IMG/VR virus record: IMGVR_UViG_3300043436_000100
Coordinates: 1 to 22,273 of that record
Direction: 5' to 3' (one strand)
DNA from: a virus
Length of the DNA stretch: 22,273 nt
This document shows positions 4,301 to 12,042 of this stretch, in pieces (the stretch's first letter is position 1; each line of letters begins with the position of its first letter). Below the pieces are notes generated by a model, which searched no databases, was not told the DNA's origin, and worked only from the letters and a program-made list of their open reading frames with translations. The translations under genes and the position numbers were made by a program.

Positions 4301-4915
4301 TTACCCGCCCAGCACTTCTAAGGCGTGGTTGGTGTGCAAGATGCGGTCATCCAACCCAATCGTGCCGCCGTTGATTTTCTTTGTGAGCGCCAGGTGGTTG
4401 CCAGCTTCGGCCAAAGCATTCAGCTTCTGGGTGTCCCAAAACCAGCCTGCGGTCATGGCAGCGTATTGAGGCGTGGACACCAGGTCAGGCTCCATGATGA
4501 AGTCCACACCCAGCGCCTGCCCTGCATGGTGGTAATTTGCAGATCCCGTCAACTGGATGCAGCCACGGCCACGAAAACGATACCCATCACCAGAAGCCTC
4601 GTCCCGATTTGACATGCGGTTGCCGTAAATGCGGTTTGCAATTTTCTTTGGTTGTCGTTCATATGCAGCAGCCTCTTCAGGCGTAAAGCCCCATGTGCGC
4701 CGTGGCGTGCGGGGAAATAGTTTGAGCAGCGTTGCGGCCCTGTAGTTGAGGTTTTCCTCCAGCACACGGAAGTTGGCGCTCTCATGGCCGCACTGACCGA
4801 TAAACGCAGCCTGCTGGCGCGGTGTCAGGATATTGAATCGCTCAAAAGTGGCGTTCAGTGCATCGACCCACTGAGGGCCGATGTGCAGTTTTTTAAGTTG
4901 TTCACTGTTGACCAT
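4301..4915 (-). CDS. Endolysin, GH19 (chitinase-like) muramidase
   Basis: 204 residues matching the glycoside hydrolase 19 family used by many phage lysins to cut peptidoglycan. The catalytic region is AFIGQCGHESANFRVLEENL (residues 38-57), with the expected general acid Glu45 and nearby Glu53/54. The second signature, GYRFRGRGCIQLTG (111-124), lines the substrate cleft. A Trp/Phe-rich segment (GWFWDTQKLNALAE, 157-170) follows. There is no signal peptide or membrane anchor, so it needs a holin to reach the wall. GGAG lies 8 nt before the ATG, and the gene overlaps the end of Rz by 14 nt. Length is normal for a single-domain lysin. Confidence 0.92.
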   Translation of the reverse strand: MVNSEQLKKLHIGPQWVDALNATFERFNILTPRQQAAFIGQCGHESANFRVLEENLNYRAATLLKLFPRTPRRTWGFTPEEAAAYERQPKKIANRIYGNRMSNRDEASGDGYRFRGRGCIQLTGSANYHHAGQALGVDFIMEPDLVSTPQYAAMTAGWFWDTQKLNALAEAGNHLALTKKINGGTIGLDDRILHTNHALEVLGG

Positions 4916-7619: not shown

Positions 7620-9125
7620 TTAAGCAACGATCCAGTTTGTGCCGTTGTAAAAAACAGGGATGGTGACAGCACCGCTGCCAGCGACAGCAACGCCAAAAGA
7701 CGGAGCCAGTGCGTCTGTCACATACGTTCTCATGCCGACAGTTCCAGCGGGTAATGTTGCAACCGTGTAGCCTGTAGTCCGGATAGGCCCAGATACTTGC
7801 AGCTTTGCAACACCAGTGGCAGAAGTAAGGCCAACAAGATATTCCCCGTTTGCTGTAAGAGTGGCCGCCTGAGTGAAGGTGATGGCGTTACCTGCTGTGC
7901 CGGAGGGGGCGGTTGACCAAACGTGAGCACCTTGGAACTGGTAGTAATGTGACGCTTGAGCGCCGGTGTTGGCGTACTTAAAGCCGCTATTGAAGTAGGC
8001 GTTGGCTATTGAATAAATACTGGCAGTGCCGTTCCAGATTCCGTAACCTTGCCCAAAAACTTCAATCGCTCTGCCTTGACCCCAAGCACTCGGAGTAACC
8101 CCCAAGCCGAGGTTGCCGGAGGAGTCGAGGCGCATGCGTTCGGTGGGTCTAGTTGACGAAGTCGAACTATCTGGGCGCGTCTTGAAAAGTAAAATGCCTC
8201 CATTTGAAGCAGTTCCAAACTCTTCAAAACCAATCGCCGCACTTGCTTCAGCAGAAGTGTCAAAATAGCCAAAACCAATATCCGCTTTGGCCTGAATGCC
8301 TCCAGAACCGCCGAAAGCGTTGATGCGCAAAACTTCTACATCGTTTGTGACGCTGTTAAGGGTGAGCAACTTGTTAGGCGAACTCGTCCCAATACCTACG
8401 TTGCCATCGCTGGCGATGCGCATGGCTTCAACACCACCTTCAGAAAAAGCAATGGTGTCAGCGGCAGGGAAGAAGATGCCGGTGTTGGTGTCGCCGGAGG
8501 TGGTGATTGCAGGAGCCGCAGCAGTGCCAGCTTGAACTGTTGTCACCCCTGTGGCACTCAGCGTAGTAAACGCGCCCGTAGAAGCCGTTGTAGCGCCCAC
8601 AGTGCCGTTGATGTTGATGGAGGCTGTGCCGGTCAGGTTTGTCACCACACCCGATGCAGGAGTGCCCAGAGCTGGAGTGACCAAGGTGGGGCTGTTGGCA
8701 AACACCAAAGCGCCTGTGCCTGTTTCGTCTGTGACGGCTGCGGCAAGGTTGGCCGATGATGGTGTTCCCAAGAATGTCGCAACACCAGAGCCAAGGCTTG
8801 TAATGCCTGTGCCGCCATTCGCAACAGGCAAAGTGCCTGTCACGCCAGTGGTCAAGGGCAAGCCTGTGGCATTTGTCAGGGTTGCAGATGAAGGCGTACC
8901 CAATGCAGGCGTTACCAGTGTCGGGCTGTTGGACAAGACGTTGCTGCCAGATCCAGTGGATGTGCCGACACCTGTGCCGCCCTTGTCAACTTTGAGCAGC
9001 GGCCCAGCGTTGAACAGCGCATCAATGGTGTCCAAGTCGGAATTAAGTTTTTGGCCCCAAGTATCTGTTGATGCACCGACCTCTGGTTTGGTCAATAACA
9101 AATTTGTGGTTGTTGAATCTGCCAT
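7620..9125 (-). CDS. Tail fibre / receptor-binding protein
   Basis: 501 residues, Thr/Ser/Gly/Ala-rich. The start ([20 protein letters not shown], then [18 protein letters not shown]) is the usual virion-attachment opening of podoviral fibres. Residues 48-170 hold fibre-shaft repeats with [13 protein letters not shown] at both 66-78 and 144-156 and [13 protein letters not shown] between. Residues 230-260 contain [20 protein letters not shown] and a related [18 protein letters not shown] occurs later, modules common in trimeric fibres. The C-terminus ends in a short beta domain ([15 protein letters not shown]) that probably contacts the receptor. No S74 intramolecular chaperone is seen. A GGGGTAA site precedes ATG 9125. 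Confidence 0.87.
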
Positions 9126-9134
9126 GTTTTACCC

Positions 9135-9896
9135 CTATGCGGCGATTTGCCAAGTTTCTGAATTATCTGCGATTGGTGTCCAGGTTTCACTGGCGTCAGC
9201 AATCGCATCCCATGCCTCTGAAGTGTCAGACACTGGCGTCCATGTCTCGCCCGTGTCGGCAATGGCTTCCCAGCTTTCAGGTGTGTCACCCTCTGGGACC
9301 CACTTAAGATTTGCATCCACCGTCATGCCGGACACGCCAGCAAACGTCAGCCCAATGCTTTGCCTGCGCGTGCCGTTCACGGTCATGGCCGACTGCGCCT
9401 GAATCAGCACAGCCTGGTTGACGATCACGCTGGTGCTGACCGTCATGGTCGCAAAGTCTTCAATCAGGATCTGGATCAGCGGCACTCGGATGGCGCTGAC
9501 CGTCATGGCGCTCTCGTCCACCGCAGTCGCTTGTGCAATCGCCACCCGCAAAGCTGCCACAGAGGCGCTGGAGGTAGATGCAGCCGTTGCAGCACCTATG
9601 GCATACCGCACGCCTGACACGGCCATGCTGGAGGCGCTTGAGGCCGTAGCAGCCGCAACAGCTACACGCTGCGCAGCCACTGATGCGCTGCTGGATGCGG
9701 CCACCGCAAAAGATGCATCTTTAATGACGTTGGTGGCCACGGCCACAGTGCTGGACGCAGAAACAGAAAACGCACCTATGCAGATGCGTTTTGCGTCCAC
9801 AGCCACCGTGCTGGTGGCTGCGAGTGTGACGGAGGCAAGGCTTATGCCGTAGCTGTAATTGCCCTCGCCATACGGACCACGGCCATACGCTGCCAT
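9135..9896 (-). CDS. Repeat protein of the tail region (nine 20-residue units plus Trp repeats)
   Basis: 253 residues, almost entirely repeats. After a Gly/Tyr-rich leader (MAAYGRGPYGEGNYSYG), residues 18-197 divide exactly into nine 20-residue units ending near V-x-x-x-R (for example YAIGAATAASTSSASVAALR). A short linker (198-206) leads to a second array, residues 207-246, of four 10-residue units of the form E-x-W-x-x-I/V-A/S-D-x-S/G, followed by a partial fifth. Alternating small and hydrophobic residues suggest beta-strand stacking, such as a solenoid or shaft. The gene sits between a Gp80-like tail protein and the fibre gene, so a tail or fibre accessory is likely. I do not recognise a named family. 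Confidence 0.75.
   Translation of the reverse strand: MAAYGRGPYGEGNYSYGISLASVTLAATSTVAVDAKRICIGAFSVSASSTVAVATNVIKDASFAVAASSSASVAAQRVAVAAATASSASSMAVSGVRYAIGAATAASTSSASVAALRVAIAQATAVDESAMTVSAIRVPLIQILIEDFATMTVSTSVIVNQAVLIQAQSAMTVNGTRRQSIGLTFAGVSGMTVDANLKWVPEGDTPESWEAIADTGETWTPVSDTSEAWDAIADASETWTPIADNSETWQIAA
9159..9278 (-). repeat. Trp-containing 10-residue repeats (two 60-bp units)
   Basis: Encodes ESWEAIADTG, ETWTPVSDTS, EAWDAIADAS and ETWTPIADNS (residues 207-246), with a partial ETWQ after. The alternating AIAD and TPxxD forms give a 20-residue super-period, the same length as in the neighbouring array. Confidence 0.85.
9306..9845 (-). repeat. Nine tandem 60-bp (20-residue) repeats
   Basis: Encodes residues 18-197 of the repeat protein. 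Each unit is 20 residues with no gaps. The most regular units are VAVAAATASSASSMAVSGVR, YAIGAATAASTSSASVAALR and VAIAQATAVDESAMTVSAIR. The outer units keep the ...S-x-M/V-T/A-V ending but differ elsewhere. DNA identity between units is low, so the array is old or under selection for the protein pattern. Confidence 0.85.
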
Positions 9897-9897
9897 G

Positions 9898-10296
9898 TCA
9901 TGTCAATGTGACGTCAAGGTCACCGGCAGGGATGCGCAGCACATCGCCATCATTGATGGTGCGTGCCGTACTCAGTGCAGCCCAAGCAAGCATATTGCCG
10001 CCCGTGCTGGCATCAAAAATAGCCGCCCAGCCAATCGACCCCCAATTGCCACCAGAGGCCGCTGCAAACTCAATGGCCGCAGCGTTGGTGGCGTTGGTAG
10101 GGCTTGTGCCAGAAACCGTGATCGTGCCAGTGACCACACGGGCGTACCCGTTGCCTGTCACCTCAGTGCCGCCACCAGTGTCAGATGGGGCAGCCGTAAA
10201 CAGGCCAACATACCAAGCTGTCGGGCGTGTGGCTGTGTTGGCGGTCAACAAAAAGTTGAGCACCAGATTTTCTGTGTAATCGGTAAAAGATGACAT
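9898..10296 (-). CDS. Gp80-like phage tail protein
   Basis: 132 residues opening MSSFTDYTENLVLNFLLTAN, then TAWYVGLFTAAPSDTGGGTE and GYARVVTG, with a later AAIFDASTGGNMLAWAAL. This order of motifs matches a common small virion protein family in tailed phages (I recall it as Gp80-like). The fold is beta-rich. The gene follows the head-tail adaptor by 9 nt and ends one base before the ATG of the repeat protein. It is probably a structural component of the tail or a fibre base. Motif match is good; role is from context. Confidence 0.75.
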   Translation of the reverse strand: MSSFTDYTENLVLNFLLTANTATRPTAWYVGLFTAAPSDTGGGTEVTGNGYARVVTGTITVSGTSPTNATNAAAIEFAAASGGNWGSIGWAAIFDASTGGNMLAWAALSTARTINDGDVLRIPAGDLDVTLT

Positions 10297-10305
10297 ATCC
10301 AGCCC

Positions 10306-10929
10306 TTATCCAAAAGTCTTTGCACGGGTCAGCAGCGCACCACCAGAAGTCGACGCCCTGCTGTCTGCTGTTCTCAAATCATTCAAGGCTCGCTCATACA
10401 GAGTTGCCCATGTCTGAATTCTCGCATCGTCTTGCAGGTATGGCGCAGCCTGCAACAGCGCACCGTACAAATAGATGTCTGGACTTGATGCCAAAAGCCA
10501 ATTGCTGGCCACACTGTTTGACAACTTCGTCAACTTTGCAAAGTAGATCAGTTCGGCTGTGTAGGTTGCATCAGGTGTTGGACTGATTCGGAATTGGCCA
10601 CCCACCACACTGAAGAACCGTGGCCGACCACTGGCTGTGTAATGTGACCGTGATTCGTCCATGTCATCAATCGACAGGAACTCCAAGGGCGTCAAGGGGT
10701 TGGTGCTGGTCAGCTTGAGGGACTTGACCTCCAAGAAGTCAGCAGGCACAGCGCCATACTCAGAGTCAAAAGACGCATTGGCACGCACAATCATTTGGCG
10801 CGTGCGCAGCGTGCGCTCAATCTGGGCCTCGGCCAGAGAGATGAAGTCAGGGATGGTGGCCGACAGGTCGGACCTGTTCAGCCAATCCCCGATGGATGTC
10901 CTCAACTCTGCATATGTGCTAAGTGCCAT
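10306..10929 (-). CDS. Head-tail adaptor protein (SU10/podovirus type)
   Basis: 207 residues, largely helical. MALSTYAELRTSIGDWLNRS, IPDFISLAEAQIERTLRTRQ (26-45), ADFLEVKSLKL and NWLLASSPDIYLYGALLQAA (142-161) match the phage adaptor family that docks under the portal in SU10-like podoviruses. It would form the ring linking portal to nozzle. GAGG lies 6 nt before ATG 10929, and the start overlaps the glycosyltransferase end by 11 nt. Length is typical for the family. Confidence 0.82.
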   Translation of the reverse strand: MALSTYAELRTSIGDWLNRSDLSATIPDFISLAEAQIERTLRTRQMIVRANASFDSEYGAVPADFLEVKSLKLTSTNPLTPLEFLSIDDMDESRSHYTASGRPRFFSVVGGQFRISPTPDATYTAELIYFAKLTKLSNSVASNWLLASSPDIYLYGALLQAAPYLQDDARIQTWATLYERALNDLRTADSRASTSGGALLTRAKTFG

Positions 10930-11581
10930 TTCCAGCCTCTTTTTCCATTTCCTCTTTCACCACCCAGGTGTGAGGATGCCCAAATTCAAAAGTTCCGATG
11001 TGTCCGATTTCATGGGATACGTCATGGTCGATATAGACCTTGTAGCCAAGCTCCTGTGCCTTCTTGCAGAAGAACACATCCTCGCCCATGTAACCCCGTG
11101 TGGTCTGCCAAGGCATATCGAACCATGGCTCAGACATACCCTCAAACACCTCGCGCTTGATAAGCATTATGCCAGTGCCAATGCTCCCGACCTCTTCCAA
11201 TCCAGTGGACTCTGGCATGGTGAAAACAGGGACACGCTTGCCATCGGCGTCATAGTTCTGCGCTGTTGGTCCTGTTGGCATTCTGCGCCGTGCGCAGTTG
11301 GCAGCCACGATGGGCTTGTCGTGCTTTAGCAGCCGCTGCACCATGTCCTGGGGGAATGTCATGTCGCTGTCGATGAACAGAATGTGTGTGCATCCCTCAC
11401 GCATTGCATCCAAGCAAAGATCTGCCCTTTGGTTTTGGATGATCGTGCCCTGCATCAATTTCAGACTGATAGCGTCTTCTGTGTTGAGCGTGTGGTACGC
11501 GACCAAATTGACCATGCAATAGCAATAGTTCGTATGGACCTGATCACGGGCTGGCGTGCAGACTGCAATGTAATTACTCAT
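10919..11581 (-). CDS. GT-A-type glycosyltransferase
   Basis: 220 residues. The N-terminal half has a nucleotide-sugar-binding pattern with the metal-binding triad in LFIDSDMTFP (DSD at 71-73). Downstream, GSIGTGIMLIKREVF (133-147), GYMGEDVFFCKKAQELGYKV (163-182, GED) and DHDVSHEIGHIG (185-196) supply the usual acceptor-site acidic and His residues. The substrate is unknown. The ATG overlaps the HNH stop (ATGA). Position between capsid and adaptor genes suggests late expression and modification of virion or host-surface glycans. The family is clear; specificity cannot be read from sequence. Confidence 0.82.
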   Translation of the reverse strand: MSNYIAVCTPARDQVHTNYCYCMVNLVAYHTLNTEDAISLKLMQGTIIQNQRADLCLDAMREGCTHILFIDSDMTFPQDMVQRLLKHDKPIVAANCARRRMPTGPTAQNYDADGKRVPVFTMPESTGLEEVGSIGTGIMLIKREVFEGMSEPWFDMPWQTTRGYMGEDVFFCKKAQELGYKVYIDHDVSHEIGHIGTFEFGHPHTWVVKEEMEKEAGNGT

Positions 11582-12042
11582 TTATTCTCCAAGTGTTTCC
11601 ACAAATTGCCGTTTTTTATTTCACGAATCATTGACGCGGGGTAATTAAATTTAGCAGCCAACTTTATTGATGTTTCAGAGCTAAATTTGATTTCACGCGC
11701 TTGATCTTCTGTTAATTTTGCGTTGCCATGACTAGCGCCTTTTGCCTGCCTGTTTTTACGCACCTTGTCGATCATATTTTCCTGCTGCGTTCCGATAAAA
11801 ATATGATCTGGATTTACGCAAGACTTCACATCGCAATGGTGCAAAGCCATCATTCCATTTGGGATGGCTCCATACTTTTGCTCATATGACGCCCTATGCG
11901 CGTAAAAAGGTTTTTTGCCAGCACAAACCCTGCCGTACCCAGTTTTTTCAATAGTTGACATCCATATCCAACAGCCAGATTCCGGCAGTCGAATGGTGTT
12001 TTGCTCTATCTTTTCCAACAATGGTTTGCGTTTTCTAGCCAT
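11578..12042 (-). CDS. HNH homing-type endonuclease
   Basis: 154 residues. The HNH_3 core runs from GCWIWMSTIEKTGYGRV through YAHRASYEQKYGAIPNG to ALHHCDVKSCVNPDHIFIGT (66-85), with His68/His69, Asn77 and His80 as metal and catalytic candidates. A C-terminal helix-turn-helix-like tail (KLTEDQAREIKFSSE, then SIKLAAKFNYPASMIREIKN) should contact DNA. The gene is visibly more AT-rich than its neighbours and unrelated to virion function, so it is probably a mobile insertion. It is nevertheless joined at both ends: its ATG overlaps the upstream stop (TAATG) and its stop overlaps the glycosyltransferase ATG. Confidence 0.9.
   Translation of the reverse strand: MARKRKPLLEKIEQNTIRLPESGCWIWMSTIEKTGYGRVCAGKKPFYAHRASYEQKYGAIPNGMMALHHCDVKSCVNPDHIFIGTQQENMIDKVRKNRQAKGASHGNAKLTEDQAREIKFSSETSIKLAAKFNYPASMIREIKNGNLWKHLENK

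Follow-up and report, generated by a model that had tools for sequence, protein, structure and literature searches.

The window, a 22,273-nucleotide stretch of viral DNA, encodes on its minus strand a 253-residue repeat protein (positions 9135..9896) that we consider, with slightly better than even confidence, to be a rope threaded through trimers of a gp80-family bead protein, with a specialised end formed by its units 7-9 and its Trp array. This rope would belong to a bead-on-a-string fibre at the tail of a podovirus, and the gp80-family gene just upstream would supply the bead. Each 20-residue unit, predicted to form two short amphipathic strands, would serve as a docking site, with the bead trimers sitting along these sites, while units 7-9 together with the Trp array would either anchor the fibre to the tail or carry the next fibre protein. 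One rope is presumed per fibre. Its unit count would determine how many beads can be accommodated, and duplication of a 60-bp unit could thereby alter fibre length. The protein is most likely the rope of an already known type of bead fibre, in a new sequence form that ends in a Trp array. This reading fits a protein that is coded beside the bead, offers many equal sites and is modelled with low confidence when taken alone.

Repeat organisation of the protein and its family

The protein was delineated from its open reading frame, the translation of which begins MAAYGRGPYGEGNYSYG, and from homologues with the same architecture. It starts with a Gly/Tyr cap (residues 1-17, MAAYGxGxYGxGxYSxG; 9846..9896, minus strand), which is almost invariant in an alignment of 85 sequences and is doubled in 270-residue homologues (L062, L069 and their relatives). 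Nine gapless 20-residue units follow (residues 18-197; 9306..9845, minus strand), as the preliminary description had proposed: self-comparison of this region gave z = 10.1 at lag 20 and z = 8.2 at lag 40, and across lags 2 to 44 none of 2000 shuffles attained the lag-20 value. This is the only ORF with such periodicity among the 18 window ORFs tested, with z = 12.7 for the whole protein and 3.4 for the next best ORF (lag 19-23). Position 12 of the unit is Ser in 91% of units, and hydrophobic residues alternate at positions 1, 3, 6, 8, 14 and 16.

The C-terminal Trp array (residues 198-253; 9138..9305, minus strand) was defined by lag self-comparison and by its spacing in homologues. It contains six Trp residues, at positions 199, 209, 219, 229, 239 and 249, with an exact spacing of 10, and gives z = 10.6 at lag 20 and 9.6 at lag 10, so that the 20-residue step previously noted for both arrays is indeed common to them. 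The decapeptides alternate in type, which creates a 20-residue super-period, again as first described; the original count of four Trp units had to be raised to six, the two outermost decapeptides being degenerate. The Trp spacing is also 10 in homologues, where the number of Trp residues was six in 216 proteins, four in 24 and three in 14, and never five, indicating that most changes in array length correspond to one 20-residue step.

The units share on average 28% identity in protein and 41% in DNA, which points to old duplications. Units 1-6 resemble one another, whereas units 7-9 (9306..9485, minus strand) are of their own type in the unit-versus-unit score matrix and also close the shorter arrays of five- and six-unit homologues. 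The unit score was 38.7 between orthologous positions, as compared with 21.8 between different positions within one protein, so that the units have fixed identities. Furthermore, dN/dS against orthologues was 0.11-0.33, indicating that these old duplications have been retained through purifying selection on the protein sequence. The earlier idea that selection maintains a pattern whose repeats have diverged in DNA is thereby borne out.

Scans of viral metagenomes in IMG/VR yielded 254 distinct homologues, a set chosen by the Trp pattern that includes a few distant or truncated members. Both arrays are retained down to about 36% identity. Comparing the number of repeats among homologues, a check put forward with the initial observation, showed that length changes occur by whole 20-residue steps: nine units are present in 219 of the 254 proteins, and six, five or 22 in others. 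Nine units correspond to a first Trp at residue 199 (146 proteins), 216 (66 proteins, whose cap is 17 residues longer) or 200 (seven proteins); six units place it at 139 (13 proteins), five at 119 (two) and 22 at 459 (two). No copy of the gene was found in prophages in a scan of genome contigs, nor among plasmids. The family is real and well conserved, and it is without a name: as anticipated, no named family spans both arrays, since the protein matched no Pfam family and its best PHROG match had an E value of only 0.027. The rope proposal gives a candidate role, open to test, to a large unnamed family of freshwater phages comprising at least 254 distinct proteins.

The gp80-family bead gene and its neighbourhood

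The gene directly upstream in the same operon (9898..10296, minus strand) encodes a 132-residue protein that matches Pfam PF23140, 'Podophage GP4 fiber I protein gp80', with E = 1.1e-39. A profile of this protein matched a single PDB entry, 8jou (8jou_a, E = 9.8e-39), which contains ten gp80 chains and three gp77 chains. That Pfam names the bead family after the solved GP4 fibre supports the rope reading. The same family is called 'head protein' in PHROG 240, in disagreement with the structure-based Pfam family, which designates a fibre protein; phage annotations that rely on PHROG for gp80 proteins may therefore mislead.

Directly downstream, and on the same strand, lies a 501-residue tail fibre protein (7620..9125, minus strand; PHROG tail fibre families, E = 2e-14), which agrees with the initial placement of the repeat protein in the tail region, just before the fibre. 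In most relatives, a protein with this fibre N-terminus is encoded after the repeat gene. On the other side of the bead gene is a head-tail adaptor (10306..10929, minus strand; Pfam PF24175, SU10 adaptor, E = 1.7e-39). With portal, capsid and adaptor all of SU10 type according to Pfam, the phage is, judging from its genes, probably a podovirus.

There was room for an upstream gene in 238 distinct homologues, and 228 of them have gp80 immediately before the repeat gene, with a gap of 1-9 nt; nested ORFs of about 60 residues, which mimicked homologues lacking gp80, were excluded by a length limit. The ten exceptions comprise four giant forms, one broken frame (L123) and five cases (L167, L315 and three L368-type proteins) with gp80 a few genes upstream. 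In the two giant forms read out, L309 and L310, the position of the bead is occupied by a different gene of about 145 codons, whose product did not match PF23140; an hhalign comparison with gp80, based on two sequences, gave no clear relation. Starting from gp80, the repeat gene was adjacent at 68 of the 76 loci with room and further down at six more. As these loci are related, the counts do not represent independent events.

We compared this arrangement with that of known fibres. Fiber I of phage GP4 reportedly consists of five trimers of one protein joined by an elongated rope protein. A literature search outside the primary GP4 tail paper found no description of that rope. A 15:12 symmetry mismatch is documented for the GP4 tail (Zheng et al. 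2023, J Mol Biol 435:168258). The likeness to GP4 fiber I (gp80 beads and the fiber-tail adaptor gp77, PDB 8jou) lies in the bead gene of the window, which belongs to the gp80 family, and in the fact that Burkholderia phages with gp80 and gp77 also have a protein with 20-residue repeats directly after gp80. The systems differ in that no gp77 was found in the window and in that no sequence homology was detected between the repeat family and the Burkholderia equivalent, which, unlike the repeat protein of the window, has no Trp array. The neck fibre of the Anabaena myophage A-1(L) (gp82-gp81-gp80) is likewise a chain of repeated bead trimers at the neck or tail, but its beads form a direct link between head and tail, and the description of the fibre includes no rope (PMC10966104). 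Its gp80 is a mere namesake, the PDB search with the bead profile having matched 8jou alone.

Periodic proteins also occur next to gp80 elsewhere. Among the 140 CDS of 16 public phage regions that carry gp80, eight had a period of 19-23 residues with z ≥ 5; six of these directly follow gp80 and two lie a few genes further on, an enrichment after gp80 (Fisher p = 2e-5) for which the z threshold was picked after inspection. One of the eight, L322, is weak (z = 5.0) and has a Gly-rich end. The equivalents in BcepIL02, CSP3 and DC1 have a 20-residue period with z of 7-8, that of JC1 is weaker, and in PhiM5 the period is not significant. BcepIL02, a Burkholderia phage of GP4 type, combines the periodic protein after gp80 with a gp77 adaptor; it was the only one of six public phages searched in which gp77 (PF23148) was found, and there was no match in the window, which may itself be a fragment. 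In PVJ1, a phage of Gram-positive hosts, gp80 is followed by the gene for a Mu Gp48-like baseplate protein with a 20-residue period in its first 125 residues (p < 0.001), and in Lietuvens the protein after gp80 has a weaker N-terminal period. Venkman and CRP-4 have gp80 with no repeat gene adjoining it. The protein that follows gp80 in Gram-positive myophages (L327, 4402-5427; L319, 4403-5326) has about six 20-residue repeats at its N-terminus and some Trp residues 10 apart at its end.

Among public gp80 phages, sequence homology to the repeat family was detected solely in ctjtQ328, ct2t2046 and MEP401, of which ct2t2046 (E = 8.5e-5) and MEP401 (E = 0.0017) were matched by the unit HMM above all shuffles. 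No homology between the repeat family and the Burkholderia equivalents was detected with hhalign, and their common period may represent convergence. A repeat of about 20 residues directly after gp80 may serve as a simple rule for finding rope proteins elsewhere.

Three further observations concern the window. An HNH endonuclease gene (11578-12042; PF13392, E = 3e-11) is inserted among the virion genes, and a gene of similar appearance precedes the bead-like gene of L309. A glycosyltransferase-like gene (10919-11581; Anp1, E = 4e-9) occupies the interval between capsid and adaptor, and a candidate endolysin of the chitinase class (GH19; E = 1e-12) is found at 4301-4915.

Predicted structure and other readings

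AlphaFold models of the monomer had a mean pLDDT of 56 with 33 sequences and 58 with 85 sequences. The latter contains strictly regular strands, which span positions 1-8 and 13-18 of each of the first seven units, and its C-terminal third is without resolved structure. The models thus support the beta architecture foreseen in the preliminary description, each 20-residue unit having two regular strands, though the self-standing stacked solenoid or shaft also suggested there did not find a confident match. Foldseek returned no PDB match at E ≤ 0.001; its weak matches were mostly beta-solenoids (ice-binding proteins, LpxD and putative adhesins), and in BFVD the best matches were uncharacterised phage proteins with large rmsd, the best viral match being at 15.6 Å. 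No PDB chain was matched in sequence searches with the repeat family or with the Burkholderia equivalent.

We considered the possibility that the protein forms on its own a beta-solenoid or a trimeric beta shaft, each rung having 20 residues, that extends from the tail to the distal fibre and carries the Trp array as a stacked cap. Twenty residues is a common rung length, both AlphaFold models have two regular strands per unit, and beta-solenoids share with the units a repeat of about this length with alternating hydrophobic strands. Yet these Foldseek matches all had E values of about 0.8 or more and the confidence of the model stayed low even with 85 sequences, so that a solenoid is possible in the light of the models and not established. 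Such a shaft would furthermore not account for the close linkage of the repeat gene to the bead gene, and the low confidence of the monomer is in keeping with a chain that depends on a partner. We therefore regard a self-standing shaft as unlikely and prefer the rope because of the gp80 neighbourhood. An adenovirus-type triple beta-spiral shaft was discarded, as this fold has a 15-residue repeat and the period here is 20.

The main evidence against the rope comes from the lack of gp77 in the window and from two phages in which its equivalent is not reported in virions. Mass spectrometry of JC1 virions detected gp53 (the bead), gp55 and gp56, but not gp54, which occupies the rope position (PMC9144972), and the PhiM5 equivalent lacks the 'detected' note that the annotations of both its neighbours have. 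The protein could accordingly be an assembly factor or chaperone for bead and fibre that is absent from the finished virion. A fibre part of low copy number is, however, easily missed, and the equivalents in BcepMigl and BcepIL02 are annotated as virion proteins. In addition, the maintenance of nine units in most homologues down to 36% identity and the expansions to 22 units look structural, making a chaperone decidedly improbable. Least probable of all is a surface adhesin or decoration protein whose Trp array binds host glycans: Trp-rich repeats can bind sugars and the protein is located in the tail, but the high conservation of the Trp array (dN/dS about 0.1-0.3) is unlike that of a receptor-binding tip, and the next gene codes for a fibre in its own right.

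Unit number and fibre length

The rope reading can be extended, tentatively and with appreciably less confidence, to the view that gp80-type beads generally dock on the 20-residue unit, a module shared by or convergent between podoviruses and Gram-positive myophages, and that the units act as a ruler of fibre length. The ruler would usually count nine units, sometimes 5, 6 or 22, and 25-30 in the giant forms with a different bead, and it would be altered through tandem duplication of 60-bp units. As a conjecture the ruler is attractive: should the number of beads indeed depend on that of the units, it would amount to a length control that can be read from sequence and is distinct from tape-measure proteins. 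Against the rope, the unit numbers 5, 6, 9 and 22 share no obvious bead multiple, and a fixed rule of three units per bead trimer was dropped because arrays of 5 and 22 units occur.

The giant homologues (558-662 residues) have a different repeat of 20-21 residues between the same cap and the same Trp end; in L304-L310 the repeats are of the TGNASTTAVGSV type. Clear recent duplications of 20 and 80 residues are present in the two 22-unit proteins, L401 and L377. In L401 (3402-4943), the 22-unit array is made of near-identical 60-bp tandem units, and in its close relative L404 (3402-4846) the frame is broken inside the array.
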